A program made the position numbers and the translations under genes. Below, one piece after another: positions 133 through 13,386 of a stretch of 64,000 bases of DNA (positions are counted from its first letter, which is position 1; every line of letters starts with the position of its first letter). Source of the DNA: Hymenobacter telluris (lineage in GTDB: Bacteria; Bacteroidota; Bacteroidia; Cytophagales; Hymenobacteraceae); contig NZ_JAFLQZ010000015.1 of assembly GCF_017313265.1 (NCBI RefSeq), forward strand, positions 1 to 64,000. Reading direction: 5' to 3'. The notes beneath the pieces were generated by a model that was not told where the DNA came from, searched no databases, and was given only the letters and a program-made list of their open reading frames with translations.

Positions 133-2970
133 ATGAACCCATTAGTTGCTATCCGCGAGTTCAACCAAAGCATCTGGCTTGACTTCATCCGTCGCAAAAT
201 TCTGATTAACGGTGAGTTGAAGCGCCGCATTGACCACGAGGCCCTGCGCGGCGTAACGTCCAACCCGGCCATCTTCGAGAAGGCCATTGGCGGTTCCGAC
301 GACTACGACGGCGCCATCAAAAGCCTGGCGCTGCAAAACAAAACCACCGACGAAATCTACACGGAGATGGTTATTGCCGACATTCAGCACGCCTGCGACC
401 TGTTCCGCCCGCTCTACGACAGCCACGACAACTCGTCCGACGGCTACGTGAGTTTGGAAGTGTCGCCGACGCTGGTTAACGACACCGAAGGCACCATCGA
501 GGAAGGCATGCGCTTCTGGAAAGCGGTGGACCGCCCGAACGTGATGATTAAGGTGCCGGCCACGCTGGAAGGCCTCCCCGCCATCCGCCGGCTCATTGCC
601 GAAGGTATCAACGTCAACGTAACCCTGATTTTCGGGTTGGAGCGTTACCGTTTGGTGGCCGAAGCCTACATATCGGGCCTCGAAGACCGGGTGAAAGCCG
701 GCCTGCCCCTCGACAACATCGACTCGGTAGCCAGCTTCTTCCTCAGCCGCATTGACGTGCTGATTGACCCGATGCTGGAAAAGATTGCCGCCGAAGGTGG
801 TGAGAAAGGCGAGCTGGCGCAGTCGATGGTGGGTGAAGTGGCCTTGTCGAGCGCCAAGCAAGCCTACCAGATTTACAAAGAGATATTCCAGGGTCCGCGC
901 TGGGAAGCCCTGCAAGCCAAGGGGGCCGACACGCAGCGCCTGTTGTGGGCCAGCACCGGCAACAAAAACCCGAAGTACGACGACCTGAAGTACATCGAGA
1001 ACCTGATTGGGCCGAACACGGTGAATACCGTACCGACCGAAACGCTCGACATTTTCCGGGAGAAAGGCCAGCCCGCCAACCGCCTGGAAGATGGCCTCGA
1101 CAAAGCTGCCGACGTGCTGCGCCGGCTGCCTGAATTGGGCATCAACCTGGAAGAGCAAACGCAGGCATTGGAAGAAGACGGCGCTAAAAAATTCAAGGAG
1201 CCCTTCGCCAAGCTGATGGACTCGATTGAGAAGAAGCGCGTAGAGGCGCTGAAACTCACCACGGCTCCGGCAGAGCTGGCGCTGGGCAAGTACCAGGCCG
1301 ATGTGGATGCCAAAGTGAAGGAGTTCAAGAGCAAGAACTTCACCGTAGGCTTCTGGAACAAGCAGGCCGATTTGTGGGTGCAGGACGCCGAAGGGCAGGA
1401 AAGCATCCGCAGCTTTATGGGCTGGTTGCGCGTGGCCGAAACGATGGTAGCGGCCGTGCCCGCCATCGAGCAGTTTGCGCAGGAAGTGAAGGACGCCGGC
1501 TTCAAGCACGTAGTAGTGATGGGCATGGGCGGCAGCACGATGGCGCCCATTGTGTTCAAGGAAAGCTTCGAGCAGGGCGCAAACGGCCTGCCCGTATCGG
1601 TACTCGACACCACCGACCCCACCACGGTGCGTCAGATTGAAGAGTCGGTGCCGCTGGCCGATACCTTGTTCATTGTGGCCAGCAAATCGGGCACCACGGC
1701 CGAGCCGCTGGCATTTGGCGACTATTTCTACGATAAAGTCAAGCAAATCAAAGGCGACAAAGCCGGCGAAAATTTCGTGGCCATTACCGACCCCGGCTCC
1801 AAGTTCGTGACGTCGGCCACGGCGCAGGGCTACCGCCACATCTTCCTGAACTTCGCCGAGGTAGGCGGCCGGTTCTCGGCCCTCACCTATTTCGGTTTGG
1901 TGCCGGCCGCCATGTACGGCTTGAGCACCGGCGAAATTCTGGGGCGTGCCATTCTGATGATGCGGGCCTGTGGCGCTTACGGCAACGTAGAGCAAAACCC
2001 CGGCGTGGAACTGGGCGTGGCGCTGGGTGTGCTGGCCAAGCAGGGCCGCGACAAGCTGACGCTGATTGTGCCGGAGTCGTTGAGCAGCTTCGGGCTGTGG
2101 CTGGAGCAGCTAACGGCCGAAAGCACCGGCAAGCAAGGCACCGGCATCATGCCGATTGCCGGCGAGCCGGTGCGGGAGCCCGCCCTGTACGGCAACGACC
2201 GGGTGTTTGTGTATGTGGGCTACCAGAACGAAGCAGACGAAGCCAACAAGCAGGCGCTGCAAGCCCTGGAGCAAGCTGGCCACCCCGTGGTGCGCATCAC
2301 GCTCGAAGATGCCTATGATTTCGGGCAGGAGTTTTTCCGCTGGGAAGTTGCCATTGCCGTGGCCAGCGCCGTGCTGGAAATCAACCCCTTCGACCAGCCC
2401 AACGTGCAAGCCGCCAAAACGGCCACCGATGCGCTGATGAAAGTGGTGGAAGAGCAAGGCAGCCTGCCCGAAGGCGACGCCCCGGTGGTAACCGAAAACG
2501 ATGTGGCGTACTACACCGCCGTATCGGGCGCCACGGCTACGGAGGTGCTGCAAGCCTTCTTCGACCAGGCCCAGCCCGGCAATTTCCTATGTTTGCAAGC
2601 CTACCTGACCGAAACGCCGAGCCTGAATAAGAGCCTCGACCAGTTCCGGACGCAGGTGCAGGAGCAGCTGCACATTGCCACGGCTTCGGGCTACGGGCCG
2701 CGCTTTTTGCACTCCACAGGGCAGTACCACAAGGGCGGCCCCAACAACGGGCTGTTCGTGCAGTTCACCAAAAACCACCCGCAGGACCTGCAACTGCCCG
2801 GCCGTTCCTACACGTTCGGTACGTTCCAGAACGCGCAGGCAGCCGGCGACCTGAAAGCCCTGCACGATTACGACCGTCGCACGTTGCACATCCACCTCGG
2901 CGACGATGCCGAGCAAGGGTTACAAACTGTGCTGGCGGCCCTGCAAGCCGCTACGCTGCGGGTTAATTAG
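133..2970 (+). CDS. Bifunctional transaldolase / glucose-6-phosphate isomerase
   Basis: A 945-residue fusion of two cytoplasmic sugar-phosphate enzymes. The N-terminal half (about 1-370) is transaldolase, with the VTSNPAIFEKA signature near residue 41 and the Schiff-base lysine in MIKVPAT (K140). The C-terminal half (about 400-940) is a phosphoglucose isomerase-type SIS protein, with MGMGGSTMAP and SKSGTTAEPL phospho-sugar binding motifs. Such Tal-Pgi fusions are known in several bacterial groups. It links the non-oxidative pentose phosphate pathway to glycolysis and suits the arabinose genes downstream in the window, whose product enters at xylulose 5-phosphate. The first ATG after the upstream palindrome was chosen; there is no clear Shine-Dalgarno site. 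The 3' end is followed directly by a long inverted repeat with a terminator. Confidence 0.96.
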   Translation: MNPLVAIREFNQSIWLDFIRRKILINGELKRRIDHEALRGVTSNPAIFEKAIGGSDDYDGAIKSLALQNKTTDEIYTEMVIADIQHACDLFRPLYDSHDNSSDGYVSLEVSPTLVNDTEGTIEEGMRFWKAVDRPNVMIKVPATLEGLPAIRRLIAEGINVNVTLIFGLERYRLVAEAYISGLEDRVKAGLPLDNIDSVASFFLSRIDVLIDPMLEKIAAEGGEKGELAQSMVGEVALSSAKQAYQIYKEIFQGPRWEALQAKGADTQRLLWASTGNKNPKYDDLKYIENLIGPNTVNTVPTETLDIFREKGQPANRLEDGLDKAADVLRRLPELGINLEEQTQALEEDGAKKFKEPFAKLMDSIEKKRVEALKLTTAPAELALGKYQADVDAKVKEFKSKNFTVGFWNKQADLWVQDAEGQESIRSFMGWLRVAETMVAAVPAIEQFAQEVKDAGFKHVVVMGMGGSTMAPIVFKESFEQGANGLPVSVLDTTDPTTVRQIEESVPLADTLFIVASKSGTTAEPLAFGDYFYDKVKQIKGDKAGENFVAITDPGSKFVTSATAQGYRHIFLNFAEVGGRFSALTYFGLVPAAMYGLSTGEILGRAILMMRACGAYGNVEQNPGVELGVALGVLAKQGRDKLTLIVPESLSSFGLWLEQLTAESTGKQGTGIMPIAGEPVREPALYGNDRVFVYVGYQNEADEANKQALQALEQAGHPVVRITLEDAYDFGQEFFRWEVAIAVASAVLEINPFDQPNVQAAKTATDALMKVVEEQGSLPEGDAPVVTENDVAYYTAVSGATATEVLQAFFDQAQPGNFLCLQAYLTETPSLNKSLDQFRTQVQEQLHIATASGYGPRFLHSTGQYHKGGPNNGLFVQFTKNHPQDLQLPGRSYTFGTFQNAQAAGDLKALHDYDRRTLHIHLGDDAEQGLQTVLAALQAATLRVN

Positions 2971-6343: not shown

Positions 6344-6370
6344 TGGCCGTTTAAGTTATTCAAGCAAGTC

Positions 6371-6474
6371 GTCGGAACGGTGTAGAGACGCATACTTGCG
6401 TCTCGTCGTTGAACAGAGTCGGCCGAACGGCGCGCTCGACGAGACGCAACTATGCGTCTCTACACCGTTCCGAC
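6371..6474. repeat. Family B inverted repeat between convergent genes
   Basis: 38-base arms (6371-6408, 6437-6474) are reverse complements with one mismatch and contain GGTGTAGAGACGCATACTTG. The gap lies between the MFS stop and the Gfo/Idh stop. The same arm recurs at 12103-12190 and as a single arm at 13362-13386. Confidence 0.9.
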
Positions 6475-6521
6475 AACTTGCTCACTTAATCAGCTTCTCA
6501 GGGTTTCAAGCCAGCCGGTAG

Positions 6522-7739
6522 TTAGCTGAAATTGAACTCGGGCCGCCACTTCTCGATGGTGTGGTTGTAGATGGCCTGATTGGCTAGGTACACGGCGCAC
6601 GCCACCCGCGCCCCTGTATATACATTGGAATCGGGCAGCTTCTTGTCTTGCACGGCCTTGTAAAAATCGTTCAGCGCGTACCAGGAGCCATCTTTCAACG
6701 GCTCGGTGGTGATGGGAATGCCACCGTTTTTGTCCCAGGTGATTTTGGTGGCACCCGTCACGCCGTCCACGGTGCCGTATTGCTTCAGGGTTTCCTTTTC
6801 GGGGTAGTAAATGCCTTGGTCGATGAGCAGGGAAATGGTGCCTTTCGTGCCTTTGAGCTTGAACAAGTACCCGTCGCGGGCGTTGCCGCAGGTGGCCCCG
6901 AAGTTACCCACCATACCCTCACGGGCGTAGCGCACCATCACTTGCACGTTGTCGTAGGTTTCACGGCCGTCTTTGTAGTAGTCGATGCCGCCGGTGCCGA
7001 ATATTTCATCGGGGGTGGTATTGAAGGCCCAGTGGATGAAGTCGAGCTGGTGCGAGAGCAGTTCGGCGGCCAGGCCCCCGGAGTATTCGCGGTACATGCG
7101 CCAGTTTATTTTGCGCTCCAGGCTCGGCTCAGGCACGGGCCGCCGCCAACTGCCGTTCCGGTCCCACCGGCAGTCAATCTGCGTCACCTTGCCCAAATAG
7201 CCCTGGTCTATCATCTCCTTAACCCGGTAGTAGAGCGGCGAGTAGCGGTACTGGTGCCCAACTTGCAGAATCTGGCGGGGGCGCTGCTGGGCCAGCGTCA
7301 CGAGTTCCGTGGCCTGCTCGATGTTGTGGGTCATCGTTTTTTCCAGGTACACCTGCTTGCCCGCCAGCAGCGCCGCCTTCGCCACCGCAAAATGCAGGTT
7401 CAGCGGCACCGAAATAATAACGGCGTCTACGTTGCGGGCCTCCAGCAGGGCGCGGTAGTCGGCGTAGGTTTTGGCTTTGCTGGCCGCCCCTATCTTTTGG
7501 GCATCGCGCAAACGGAAAGGCAGCTCGTCGCACAGCGCCGTTACTTCGTACTTATCGGGGAGCTCCTGCAAGATTTTGAGCAGACCGGTGCCCCGGTCGC
7601 CGCAGCCAATAATGCCGATTCTGAGTTTGTCGCCAGCTACGGAAGTTGCAAAAGCTTCGGTTAGCTGGGTGCCCAGCAATAGGCCGCCAGTTAGCAGGCC
7701 CGTGGTTTTCAGAAAGTCACGTCTTGGAAGGTGAATCAT
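6522..7739 (-). CDS. TAT-exported Gfo/Idh/MocA oxidoreductase with ApbE flavinylation motif
   Basis: A 405-residue protein with a twin-arginine signal (RRDFLKTTGLLTGG, residues 6-19), then a Rossmann domain starting RIGIIGCGDRGTG (40-52) and a Gfo/Idh C-terminal domain. The family's usual EKP catalytic motif reads EKT here (133-135). Residues 325-331 are DGVTGAT, an exact match to the ApbE target motif D-x-x-S/T-G-A-S/T, with T331 as predicted FMN acceptor (codon 6747-6749). Its start overlaps the stop of the apbE gene by 4 bases (ATGA), so the two are translationally coupled. Together these predict a periplasmic NAD(P)-domain sugar oxidoreductase carrying covalent FMN. Substrate unknown; glycoside oxidation is the family's common role. 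Confidence 0.93.
   Translation of the reverse strand: MIHLPRRDFLKTTGLLTGGLLLGTQLTEAFATSVAGDKLRIGIIGCGDRGTGLLKILQELPDKYEVTALCDELPFRLRDAQKIGAASKAKTYADYRALLEARNVDAVIISVPLNLHFAVAKAALLAGKQVYLEKTMTHNIEQATELVTLAQQRPRQILQVGHQYRYSPLYYRVKEMIDQGYLGKVTQIDCRWDRNGSWRRPVPEPSLERKINWRMYREYSGGLAAELLSHQLDFIHWAFNTTPDEIFGTGGIDYYKDGRETYDNVQVMVRYAREGMVGNFGATCGNARDGYLFKLKGTKGTISLLIDQGIYYPEKETLKQYGTVDGVTGATKITWDKNGGIPITTEPLKDGSWYALNDFYKAVQDKKLPDSNVYTGARVACAVYLANQAIYNHTIEKWRPEFNFS
6747..6767 (-). other. Predicted FMN attachment site (DGVTGAT) in the Gfo/Idh protein
   Basis: These codons read D-G-V-T-G-A-T (residues 325-331). This is the consensus seen in NqrC/RnfG-type and other ApbE substrates, where the last S/T carries FMN by a phosphoester bond. 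The apbE gene is the overlapping upstream neighbour. The other two Gfo/Idh proteins in the window (10737, 42814) lack the motif. Confidence 0.7.
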
Positions 7740-8776
7740 GGGTGGGAGACTAAGCGGTGGAATCCGGGAGAGGCAGTGTCGGCAACCGCGCCGTTGGGGC
7801 GCTGGTAGATGATGTAAGCGTGCAGGTTGGGGTGGGCGCGCAAAAAGGCCAGGCTTTTCGGCAACCCCATGCCCATCAGCGCATTGTCGTAGGCGTCGGC
7901 GGTTATGGCGTCGGGGGCTACCACCGTCACGCTAATCATTTCGTTCCGGAGAGGGTAGCCGCTTTTCGGGTCGATGAGGTGGGCAGTTCGAGTTGTGCCG
8001 GCCTGCCTGAATTTACGATAGTTGCCGGACGTCGTGATTCCGCCGGCTTCAAGTTCAATGACTTGCTGCATGCCCGGCAGTTGCCAGCCGCTGCTATCGG
8101 GCCGCTCTATGCCAATGCGCATCCGGTGCCCGCCCGGCTGCTTGCGGCCCCGCACGCGTAGCTCGCCACCCAGCTCCACTAGGTAGTTGCGGATGTGCTT
8201 GCGCTCCAGCAGCGCCGCCAGCACATCTACGGTGTAGCCTTGGGCAATACCGTTTAAATCGAGGTGGACGGCCGCCACCTTCTTCACCAAAGAATCGTTG
8301 CGCAGCTGGATTTTATCGGAGCCAATGGCGGGCAGGATGGCCTGGATGGTAGCCGCCGACGGGGCTGTTTCGGTGGGGCGCGTACCGAAACCCCAGGCTT
8401 GCACCAGCGGCTGCACGGTGGCATCAAACACCCCATCCGTTTGCCGGTACACGTCCAGCGCCTTGCCCGCTACCACCCGCAGATGCCCATCAGCCAGCAC
8501 TCCAGTGGCCGACTCATTGAACCGATTGATCAGCGAGTTAGGCTGATAGAGCGAAAGCGAAGCATCAATTTCGGCTAGCTGCCGGCGCACCTCGGCTTTT
8601 GTAACGAGGCTATCCGGGGCATAGTAGGTGATGGTGTAGGTGGTGCCCTGCGCGTAGCCACTGAGCTGAAACGGCCGAAGCGGCGCCTTATCCACCGGAA
8701 GCAGCCACAACATGAGCGCGGCAACGATACTGCATTGCATCATAACGATACGCCTGGGTGAAGCGGGTTTTATCAT
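7736..8776 (-). CDS. apbE: FAD:protein FMN transferase
   Basis: A 346-residue ApbE that moves FMN from FAD onto Ser/Thr of exported proteins. Seen: an N-terminal membrane/signal segment (about 12-28), GYAQGTTYTITYY (40-52), DLNGIAQGYTVD, TSGNYRKF, HLIDPKSGYPL and the metal-binding TADAYDNALMGMG near the C-terminus, all in the usual order, so it appears intact. It lacks a clear lipobox. Its stop overlaps the start of the following Gfo/Idh gene by 4 bases, and that gene product carries a target motif. No Nqr, Rnf or other usual substrate gene is nearby, so the neighbour is the obvious client. Confidence 0.95.
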   Translation of the reverse strand: MIKPASPRRIVMMQCSIVAALMLWLLPVDKAPLRPFQLSGYAQGTTYTITYYAPDSLVTKAEVRRQLAEIDASLSLYQPNSLINRFNESATGVLADGHLRVVAGKALDVYRQTDGVFDATVQPLVQAWGFGTRPTETAPSAATIQAILPAIGSDKIQLRNDSLVKKVAAVHLDLNGIAQGYTVDVLAALLERKHIRNYLVELGGELRVRGRKQPGGHRMRIGIERPDSSGWQLPGMQQVIELEAGGITTSGNYRKFRQAGTTRTAHLIDPKSGYPLRNEMISVTVVAPDAITADAYDNALMGMGLPKSLAFLRAHPNLHAYIIYQRPNGAVADTASPGFHRLVSHP

Positions 8777-9318: not shown

Positions 9319-10701
9319 TTGATAAAGCTTACAACCTTCGCTATCTGCGCCACGGCGGCTTCCATGGCCTTTGTGCAGCCCCGCCCGGCGCCCCCCGCTC
9401 CTGCCGATACGTGGCAGAATCTGTTCGACGGCAAAACCCTGAATGGCTGGAAGCGCCTGGCCGGCACCGCCGACTATAAAGTGGAAAACGGCGCCATCGT
9501 GGGGACAACGGTGATGAACTCCGGCAACACGTTTCTGGTCACCGAGAAAGAGTACGGCGACTTTCAGCTGGAGCTCGATATCATGCTGGAAAGCAACGTC
9601 AGCAACTCCGGCGTGCAGACGCGCAGCCACTTCAATACGCCCGGTTTCGAGAACAAGGTGTACGGCCGGCAGGTGGAAATTGACCCGTCGGAACGAAGCT
9701 GGTCGGGAGGCGTGTACGATGAGGCGCGCCGGCAGTGGCTGTACCCGCTGGACTTGAACCCCAAGGCCAAGCCGCTCTTCAAAGTGGGGCAGTACAACCA
9801 CGTGAAAGTGGAGTGCATCGGCAACGAGATGAAAACCTGGCTGAACAACACGCCCGTGGCCTACGTGGTGGACCCTATAGATGCCAAGGGCTTTATCGGC
9901 TTGCAGGTGCACGGCATTACCACCAAAGAGCAGGAAGGCAAAAAGGTGTACTTCAAGAACATCAAAATCAAGACTACCGGCCTCAAGCCCAGCGCCTTCC
10001 CCACCGATATCTACGTGGTGAATTTCATGCCCAATATGCTCACGCCCTACGAGAAAGAGCACGGCTGGAAGCTGCTGTTCGACGGCAAATCCTCGGCGGG
10101 CTGGCGTAGCGCCAAAGGCACGGCATTTCCTACCAAAGGCTGGCAGGTGAACGATGGCACGATGAGCGTGCTGCCGGCCGAAGGCAAGGAATCAACCAAC
10201 GGCGGCGACATTGTAACCAACGGCCAGTACAAGGCTTTCGATTTGTCGTTTGAGTTCAAGCTGACGCCGGGCGCCAACAGTGGCCTGAAGTACTTCGTAA
10301 CGCTGGCCGAGCAAAGCACGGGGTCGGCAATTGGCCTGGAGTACCAGGTGCTCGACGACGAATTGCACCCCGACGCCAAGCTCGGGCGCGACGGCAACCG
10401 CACGCTGGCCTCGCTCTACGACCTCAAGAAAGCCGACAAAAACCCGCGCTTCATTCACAAAATTGGGGAATGGAACGTGGGGCGCGTGGTGGTGTATCCC
10501 GACAACCGGGTGGAACACTACCTGAATGGCGCCAAAGTGCTGGAATACACGCGCGGCTCCCAGGAGTTCAAAGACCTGGTGGCCATCAGCAAATACAAGG
10601 TGTGGCCGAACTTCGGGGAGGCGCCGGCCGGGCACATTCTGCTGCAAGACCACGGCAATAACGTGTCGTTTCGGAGCATCAAAATCAAGGAACTGAAGTA
10701 G
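9319..10701 (+). CDS. Exported protein with two DUF1080 (3-keto-disaccharide hydrolase) domains
   Basis: A 460-residue exported protein with two tandem DUF1080 domains: the first begins WQNLFDGKTLNGWKRL (about 32-215), the second GWKLLFDGKSSAGWRS (about 245-460). DUF1080 is a concanavalin-like fold family that includes 3-keto-glycoside hydrolases. The reading frame needs a TTG start at 9319 to include the hydrophobic signal (KLTTFAICATAASMAFVQ); an ATG at 9364 would drop most of it. Downstream, 35 bases away, is a TAT Gfo/Idh oxidoreductase, the type of enzyme that makes 3-keto sugars, and then a DUF6807 gene, so the three probably form one operon for periplasmic oxidation and cleavage of a glycoside. 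Confidence 0.88.
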   Translation: MIKLTTFAICATAASMAFVQPRPAPPAPADTWQNLFDGKTLNGWKRLAGTADYKVENGAIVGTTVMNSGNTFLVTEKEYGDFQLELDIMLESNVSNSGVQTRSHFNTPGFENKVYGRQVEIDPSERSWSGGVYDEARRQWLYPLDLNPKAKPLFKVGQYNHVKVECIGNEMKTWLNNTPVAYVVDPIDAKGFIGLQVHGITTKEQEGKKVYFKNIKIKTTGLKPSAFPTDIYVVNFMPNMLTPYEKEHGWKLLFDGKSSAGWRSAKGTAFPTKGWQVNDGTMSVLPAEGKESTNGGDIVTNGQYKAFDLSFEFKLTPGANSGLKYFVTLAEQSTGSAIGLEYQVLDDELHPDAKLGRDGNRTLASLYDLKKADKNPRFIHKIGEWNVGRVVVYPDNRVEHYLNGAKVLEYTRGSQEFKDLVAISKYKVWPNFGEAPAGHILLQDHGNNVSFRSIKIKELK

Positions 10702-10736
10702 CTACCCGCCTTTCCCACCCTCAATTGCCTGTTCTT

Positions 10737-12092
10737 ATGTCGTATCAGCGTCGTGATTTTCTTAAAACCACTGCCCTGGCCAGCGCCGGGGTGATGTTCT
10801 CGCAGGTTTCCTGGTCGGCCAGCAGCTACAAGCGCATTATCGGGGCCAACGACCGGGTGCGGGTGGGCGTGGTGGGCTTCTCTGACCGCCACCGCAACTC
10901 GCACATGCCCTGCTTTCTGAACCACTACAAGGAGTTGAACTTCGACGTAGTGGCCGTGTCCGACATCTGGAAACAGCGCCGGGAGGAAGGCGCGGCCCTG
11001 TGGAAAGAGAAGCTGGGGCACGATGTGGTAGCGTACCGCAACAATGAGGAGATGTACGCCAGGAAAGGCGTGGATGCCGTGTTTGTGGGCACCGCCGACT
11101 TTCAGCACGCCCTGCACGCCATTGAGGCCGTGCAAGCCGGCTGCGACGCCTACGTGGAAAAGCCTTTCGCCGAGACGATGGAAGACAACCGGGCCGCGCT
11201 GAAAGCCATCAAAGCGTCCAAGCAAATTGTGCAGATTGGCTCGCAGCGCCGCAGCGGCGCCAATTACCACGCGGCTGATACCTTCATTAAATCCGGCAAG
11301 TTTGGCCCGATTACGATGGTGGAGCTAACCTGGAACGTGAACCAGCCGGGGCGCTGGCGCCGGATTCCGTTGCTCAGCCAGCTCAAGGAAGCCGACACCG
11401 ACTGGAAACGCTTTTTGATGAACCGCCCCGCCGAGGCTTTCGATCCGCGTAAGTATCTGGAGTACCGCTTGTTCTGGCCGTACTCCTCGGGCTTGCCGGG
11501 CCAGTGGATGAGCCACCAGATTGACACTGTGCACTGGTTCACGGGTTTGCAACACCCGCGCAGCGTGGTGGCCAACGGCGGTATTTACATGTGGAAAGAC
11601 GGCCGCCGCAACTGGGATACCCTCACGGCCGTGTTCGACTACGGCCCCGCCAACGACCCGTCCAGCGGCTTTCAGGTGACGTTTGGCTCGCGCATGCACA
11701 ACGGCGACGAGCGGCCCACCGAAATCTACTACTCCAACGGCGGCGAGCTGAACCTGAACACCAACAAGGTGATTCCGCGGGGGGGCCTGACCAAACAGCA
11801 CGCCGCCGAAATGCAGATGCAAGCCAATCTGCTGCCCGAGTTCAGCTTGTCGGAAGCTACGGCGGTGGCGGCTTCGGCCAATACGGGCGGCGACTTGCTT
11901 ACTTCCAACCACGTGCGCAACTGGATGGAGTGCGTCCGCAGCCGCAAGCAGCCCAACGCGCCCGTCGAGGCCGGCTACTACCATTCCATTGCCAATATCA
12001 TGACCACCGCCGCCGCGCACACGGGGCTCAAGGCGACCTTCGATGAAAAGCGGCAAGAGGTGATGGTAGGCGGCAAAGTGTTTACTTTATAA
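10737..12092 (+). CDS. TAT-exported Gfo/Idh/MocA family oxidoreductase
   Basis: A 451-residue protein with a TAT signal (RRDFLKTTALASAG), a Rossmann domain (VRVGVVGFSDRHRN; the glycine motif is unusual) and the EKP motif in DAYVEKPF. The C-terminal domain contains the MSHQIDTVHWF region typical of this family. It is likely a periplasmic sugar or cyclitol dehydrogenase with a tightly held cofactor. The ATG at 10737 puts the twin arginine near the N-terminus; a TTG 12 bases earlier is less likely. It has no flavinylation motif. Operon with the DUF1080 gene before it (35-base gap). Confidence 0.92.
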   Translation: MSYQRRDFLKTTALASAGVMFSQVSWSASSYKRIIGANDRVRVGVVGFSDRHRNSHMPCFLNHYKELNFDVVAVSDIWKQRREEGAALWKEKLGHDVVAYRNNEEMYARKGVDAVFVGTADFQHALHAIEAVQAGCDAYVEKPFAETMEDNRAALKAIKASKQIVQIGSQRRSGANYHAADTFIKSGKFGPITMVELTWNVNQPGRWRRIPLLSQLKEADTDWKRFLMNRPAEAFDPRKYLEYRLFWPYSSGLPGQWMSHQIDTVHWFTGLQHPRSVVANGGIYMWKDGRRNWDTLTAVFDYGPANDPSSGFQVTFGSRMHNGDERPTEIYYSNGGELNLNTNKVIPRGGLTKQHAAEMQMQANLLPEFSLSEATAVAASANTGGDLLTSNHVRNWMECVRSRKQPNAPVEAGYYHSIANIMTTAAAHTGLKATFDEKRQEVMVGGKVFTL

Positions 12093-12102
12093 AAGCTATC
12101 CG

Positions 12103-12190
12103 GGTGTAGAGACGCATACTTGCGTCTGGTCGGGCAGGCCGTTCAACCGATTCTGTTCAACGGCAAGACGCAAGTATGCGTCTCTACACC
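12103..12190. repeat. Family B inverted repeat
   Basis: 25-base perfect arms (12103-12127, 12166-12190) made of the GTGTAGAGACGCATACTTGC sequence, with an inner GCCGTT / AACGGC pair. It begins 10 bases after the Gfo/Idh stop codon and precedes the DUF6807 gene, so it may attenuate or stabilise the transcript. Confidence 0.9.
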
Positions 12191-13298: not shown

Positions 13299-13361
13299 GG
13301 CTGGTACCCTGCCAGCTGGTTCTCAGTGGGCGCGCCGCCCGGCTGATTCCGTTCAATGATA

Positions 13362-13386
13362 AGACGCAAGTATGCGTCTCTACACC
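13362..13386. repeat. Single arm of family B repeat
   Basis: The right arm only (AGACGCAAGTATGCGTCTCT and following ACACC) is present between the convergent DUF6807 and glpK stops, after a GATTCCGTTCAA piece that also occurs inside the 12103 copy. It is a degraded or half copy. Confidence 0.8.

Follow-up and report, generated by a model that had tools for sequence, protein, structure and literature searches.

We analyzed a 64,000-nucleotide stretch of the genome of Hymenobacter telluris (contig NZ_JAFLQZ010000015.1, positions 1 to 64,000 of the forward strand), hereafter the window. It contains a minus-strand gene pair in which apbE, encoding an FAD:protein FMN transferase, precedes the gene for an oxidoreductase of the Gfo/Idh/MocA family, hereafter GFO (Table 1). 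The two genes overlap by four bases (ATGA), the TGA stop codon of apbE sharing bases with the ATG start codon of GFO, and the N-terminus of GFO (MIHLPRRDFLK) contains a twin-arginine motif. Both the overlap and the Tat signal had been described in an earlier note on this locus and are borne out here.

Table 1. Genes and sequence features of the apbE-GFO region in the window
Feature	Positions	Strand	Basis
GFO, Tat-signal Gfo/Idh/MocA oxidoreductase, 405 aa	6522..7739	-	PF01408, PF22725, PF02894
DGVTGAT, residues 325-331 of GFO, predicted FMN attachment site (acceptor T331)	6747..6767	-	exact ApbE motif and conservation
RRDFLK twin-arginine motif, residues 6-11, signal peptide of GFO	7707..7724	-	sequence
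apbE, FAD:protein FMN transferase, 346 aa, N-terminal hydrophobic signal or anchor	7736..8776	-	PF02424
Double-domain DUF1080 / 3-keto-disaccharide hydrolase, secreted, divergently transcribed	9319..10701	+	PF06439, 284 bits
Second Tat Gfo/Idh oxidoreductase, about 455 aa, no flavin motif	10725..12092	+	PF01408

GFO could be assigned to the Gfo/Idh/MocA family by its Rossmann domain (GFO_IDH_MocA, 75 bits in the Pfam search) and a Gfo/Idh C-terminal domain with catalytic residues. The NAD-binding sequence GIIGCGDRG is kept, and the catalytic residues of the family (K134, H230 and D233) are conserved. Besides a sub-threshold match to F420_oxidored, its Pfam matches are to Gfo/Idh domains alone, and none of the known ApbE client domains (FMN_bind, DUF2271, NqrB/RnfD, Flavodoxin_4 and FMN_red) was detected in it by this search. 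Its best fold matches are also Gfo/Idh enzymes; the nearest solved folds belong to NAD(P)-dependent sugar enzymes, and the NAD-dependent glycoside hydrolases 8qc2/8qc8 and 8qc5 are among the structural neighbors. The window protein is 94% identical to a Hymenobacter protein, and a search of plasmids returned distant relatives only. The pattern RRxF[LIVFC] is found in 41 of 44 motif-bearing rows, the other three having KRKDFI, and GFO and its relatives are predicted from this signal motif to be extracytosolic.

The ApbE protein of the window (PF02424, 264 bits; closest solved ApbE 5mgy, E 1.5e-46) keeps the TTSGNY and AHLIDP motifs and is predicted to be an FMN transferase. Its clade has ADAYDNAL where other ApbE proteins have ADAYATA, and the replaced Thr is a metal ligand. 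A change of specificity in this clade is possible.

Two further observations were made in the window. Intergenic inverted repeats of 46 nt with a GTAGAGACGCATACTTGCGTCTC core are present at 6363-6482, 12106-12187 and 13361-13383; the core has five matches in the window, with none expected by chance, and the repeats look like a dispersed palindromic element. In addition, a fused transaldolase-phosphoglucose isomerase protein is encoded at 133-2967 (+).

Conservation of the DGVTGAT motif

The observation from which the earlier note started, that residues 325-331 of GFO read DGVTGAT, holds exactly: the segment matches the ApbE target rule D-x-x-[ST]-G-A-[ST] (PMC12052999). When the GFO sequence was shuffled, the motif appeared in 38 of 20,000 shuffles (about 0.2%). 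Among 400 proteins encoded around GFO and its relatives, the strict motif is present in 31, all of which are GFO proteins themselves, against 0.55 expected from shuffling. Chance occurrence is thus ruled out by conservation together with this neighborhood scan. No other motif-bearing protein was found in the neighborhood in the window, and another ApbE client near GFO was rejected on this ground.

Relatives of GFO were gathered from genome scans of Bacteroidota, with other phyla little sampled, and 38 motif-bearing rows were used for the alignment and the tree. D325, V327, G329 and A330 are invariant in all of these rows. Residue 331 is only T or S, with three changes on the tree. At residue 328, four changes were counted, and T and S are the only residues apart from a single A (DGVAGAT, row L035). 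Except for this A, the substitutions at both positions match what the ApbE rule allows (PMC12052999). The mean entropy of columns 325-331 is 0.24 bits, compared to 1.97 just before and 1.83 just after, which makes the motif the sharpest conserved feature of the C-terminal half of GFO.

The motif bearers are monophyletic (support 100/99) in a tree from which the motif columns were excluded. This clade spans about ten Bacteroidota families, including Hymenobacteraceae, Chitinophagaceae, Sphingobacteriaceae, Flavobacteriaceae and several others. Outgroup Gfo/Idh proteins lack the loop segment that contains the motif, and we did not see the motif in any other Gfo/Idh subfamily that was checked. 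Two AlphaFold runs with different shallow alignments placed most of residues 317-335 and all of residues 314-334, respectively, in low-confidence loops, consistent with a loop that is mobile and accessible.

Linkage to apbE and distribution of ApbE clients

The apbE gene lies directly upstream of GFO in Hymenobacter, in Niastella and in genome G636. In a sample of 150 genomes of the Hymenobacter family, GFO was found in 12, and a close apbE was present in the same 12, always adjacent; related apbE genes without GFO occur in nine genomes of another genus. The motif is kept throughout the GFO subfamily whether apbE is adjacent or not. The idea raised in the earlier note, that the motif might be conserved only in apbE-linked homologs, therefore fails in both directions, since unlinked homologs retain it and other apbE-adjacent Gfo/Idh subfamilies lack it. 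ApbE works in trans, so the presence of the motif in unlinked homologs does not refute the client claim. Adjacency to apbE does not by itself prove a client either, because the proteins of clade B1 and subfamily C adjoin apbE without having the motif; it is weak evidence alone and does not imply that such Gfo/Idh proteins are modified.

Further examination of the related clades revealed several arrangements. In sister clade B2, [DE]xIPIGGA[ST]W occupies the same alignment position as the motif, again with a T/S exchange, and a divergent apbE precedes all seven members for which upstream flanking sequence was available; one locus (L102) has the order DUF1080, Gfo/Idh, apbE, Gfo/Idh (B2). Clade B1, which is the nearest to the motif clade, also lies beside apbE and has no GA[ST]. 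In three of its loci (L066, L067 and L069), the Gfo/Idh gene directly follows that of a canonical exported ApbE, and GDMPYRGxG is common to the three proteins at the corresponding alignment position; this clade has either lost the tag or uses another site. Subfamily C comprises more distant Gfo/Idh proteins that adjoin an apbE of the same clade as that of the window and lack the motif. The motif-less B1 and C proteins suggest that apbE accompanies exported Gfo/Idh proteins generally and that a recognizable tag is present in only part of them.

Some loci deserve separate mention. A conserved block of genes for a SUMF1-like protein, a subfamily C Gfo/Idh protein of about 439 aa, an ApbE close to that of the window and a TIM-barrel sugar isomerase was observed in L130, L131, L132, L133, L141, L142, L145 and L146, and none of the proteins of this block has an ApbE motif. 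In L043 and L056, a sister-clade Gfo/Idh protein has AGPS in place of GGA[ST] and the neighboring ApbE lacks the middle of its domain, perhaps a pair in decay. A secreted protein of 393 aa with DGATGAT and no Pfam match is encoded in L144 (8622-9800, +), directly after an apbE similar to that of the window (326 bits), and is possibly another ApbE client.

At the genome level, ApbE is encoded in all 20 motif-clade genomes and in the genome of the window, compared to 63 of 90 genomes in a baseline sample of the phylum (20/20 vs 63/90, Fisher p 0.002, a test that ignores relatedness and in which two genomes belong to both sets). A genome-wide search for ApbE clients covered three known families, FMN_bind, DUF2271 and NqrB/RnfD. 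All three families are absent from the genome of the window, which is estimated to be 100% complete, and from G370, and FMN_bind and DUF2271 are absent from each of the apbE-linked genomes G000, G370 and G636. G636 encodes a single ApbE, beside GFO, and one partial NqrB-like match, which lacks [ST]GA[ST] and was ruled out as the real client for this reason. Among the 18 motif-clade genomes in which GFO is not linked to apbE, 17 have FMN_bind or DUF2271. The three linked and the 18 unlinked genomes thus differ in client family presence (Fisher p 0.003), with G000 and G370 from the same genus. Both genome-level comparisons are post hoc and based on small numbers. In the simplest reading, GFO would need ApbE, borrowing it where another flavinylation system exists and bringing its own where there is none.

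A second apbE in Hymenobacter (L058:9821-10912 (-); L148:5079-6161 (+)) is flanked by genes for a DUF3570 protein and a thioredoxin-like protein. A motif-bearing client was not found near it, and the three searched client families are absent from the genome.

Thus, the proposal of the earlier note that GFO is a client of ApbE is very probably right, considering motif conservation, the T/S toggle at residue 331, the apbE linkage and the genome-wide presence of ApbE. Comparative genomics indicates that the motif is likely to be functional as an ApbE tag, with flavin attachment as the predicted outcome.

Neighboring genes and possible function

A gene of the DUF1080 family lies beside GFO in 23 of the 37 neighborhoods examined, and the order DUF1080, second Gfo/Idh, GFO recurs in many families. 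DUF1080 proteins are 3-ketoglycoside hydrolases that have been proposed to be periplasmic; examples are BT2157 and, in the LacABC lactose route, a protein of Caulobacter (PMC9007349). BT2158 has been described as a glycoside 3-dehydrogenase located in the periplasm (PMC11300592). For the second Gfo/Idh protein, the best informative match is the BT_2158 glycoside 3-dehydrogenase model, with 73.8 bits, far under its cut-off of 750. GFO itself scores 85.1 bits against BT_2158 (cut-off 750) and 39.6 bits against BT_2159 (cut-off 650) by the curated cut-offs of NCBIfam, and thus belongs to neither the BT_2158 glycoside nor the BT_2159 disaccharide 3-dehydrogenase family. The DUF1080 and second Gfo/Idh neighbors point to periplasmic 3-ketoglycoside metabolism. 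No constant cytochrome, PepSY protein or other obvious membrane acceptor was seen in the GFO neighborhoods.

On this basis, we propose that GFO acts as an exported sugar oxidoreductase that binds NAD(P) and would work in a periplasmic 3-ketoglycoside pathway together with the DUF1080 hydrolase and the second Gfo/Idh protein. ApbE would attach FMN by a phosphoester bond to T331, in the surface loop inserted in the C-terminal domain of GFO. The tethered flavin would take a hydride from tightly held NAD(P)H of the same protein or of a dimer partner and pass the electrons, singly or in pairs, to an acceptor in the envelope, which would allow turnover of GFO in a compartment without exchange of free NAD(P)H. 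Given the known motif rule, attachment of FMN at T331 is likely. The transfer from NAD(P)H to FMN and the acceptor are put forward tentatively. The complete explanation, which combines FMN on T331, a role in periplasmic 3-ketoglycoside metabolism and reoxidation of NAD(P)H by the flavin, seems on balance somewhat probable.

GFO might also be flavinylated and act as a redox hub, its FMN docking with another carrier, rather than being a self-contained dehydrogenase. Electrons could then come from the partner Gfo/Idh protein or a small carrier, or be fed inward for reduction of 3-keto sugars. The second Gfo/Idh gene is usually upstream in the operon, the motif loop, which appears flexible in both AlphaFold models, would suit an arm swinging between partners, and most known ApbE clients are electron carriers (PMC11334425). 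However, the retained NAD-binding and catalytic residues argue for an active dehydrogenase, and no constant carrier protein was seen in the neighborhoods of GFO; we consider this role rather unlikely.

It is less probable still that the DGVTGAT loop carries no flavin and is conserved for some other reason, such as a substrate lid or an oligomer contact, while ApbE serves other clients. Retention of the motif where apbE is not adjacent, the position of apbE beside motif-less Gfo/Idh proteins and the second apbE in the genome of the window would all suit such a loop. Against it stand the exchange of only T and S at both hydroxyl positions (except for one A), the GGA[ST] of the sister clade linked to apbE, and the lack of FMN_bind, DUF2271 and NqrB proteins in the genome of the window.

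The least probable possibility is that GFO works as a redox-neutral enzyme, either an NAD-dependent glycosidase or a reductase of 3-keto sugars, in which FMN rescues enzyme stuck as NADH by reoxidizing it, as the glycoside hydrolases among its structural neighbors and the action of DUF1080 proteins on 3-keto sugars (PMC9007349) might suggest; the absolute conservation of the motif, in contrast, suggests a central role. The solved NAD-dependent glycosidases of this fold are not known to need such a tag.

GFO shares with known ApbE clients the same seven-residue motif, export and apbE linkage, and in flavinylated Flavodoxin_4 proteins the motif is likewise found in an inserted loop (PMC11334425). 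Those clients carry electrons, are membrane subunits or have a flavin-binding fold, whereas GFO, a Rossmann-fold dehydrogenase dependent on NAD(P), has no flavin-binding ancestry. It resembles the BT_2158 and BT_2159 Gfo/Idh/MocA 3-dehydrogenases in fold, export and DUF1080 neighbor, and differs from them in its scores far below the curated cut-offs and in the flavin motif. The fold is also similar to that of the glucose-fructose oxidoreductase of Zymomonas (1rye), a Tat-exported Gfo/Idh enzyme in which reduction of a second sugar regenerates the bound NADP; in GFO, this role would fall to the tethered flavin. The periplasmic lactose 3-dehydrogenase LacABC supplies a DUF1080 step of the same kind, also in the periplasm (PMC9007349), but consists of unrelated membrane-bound subunits, which GFO would replace with NAD and covalent FMN in one soluble protein.

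ApbE substrate surveys of 2021 and 2024 and a review of 2025 make no mention of a Gfo/Idh client. No paper combining ApbE with Gfo/Idh/MocA or DUF1080 was found in the open-access literature, and no description of a link from Gfo/Idh proteins or 3-ketoglycosides to ApbE flavinylation was found. What would be new here is the predicted ApbE flavinylation on a non-flavin protein fold. More tentatively still, GFO may represent a two-cofactor class of sugar dehydrogenases, in which an NAD-dependent Rossmann enzyme has acquired an ApbE tag and the tethered FMN reoxidizes trapped periplasmic NADH, passing the electrons to the envelope.

If true, this would be a new kind of flavin-carrying enzyme, and would show that flavinylation can be combined with another cofactor chemistry. 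Such an enzyme would offer a one-protein way of running NAD chemistry outside the cytoplasm, and might explain how turnover is possible for exported NAD(P)-dependent enzymes in the periplasm. A direct prediction would also follow for many sugar-oxidation operons of Bacteroidota that are annotated only as containing a Gfo/Idh/MocA family oxidoreductase.
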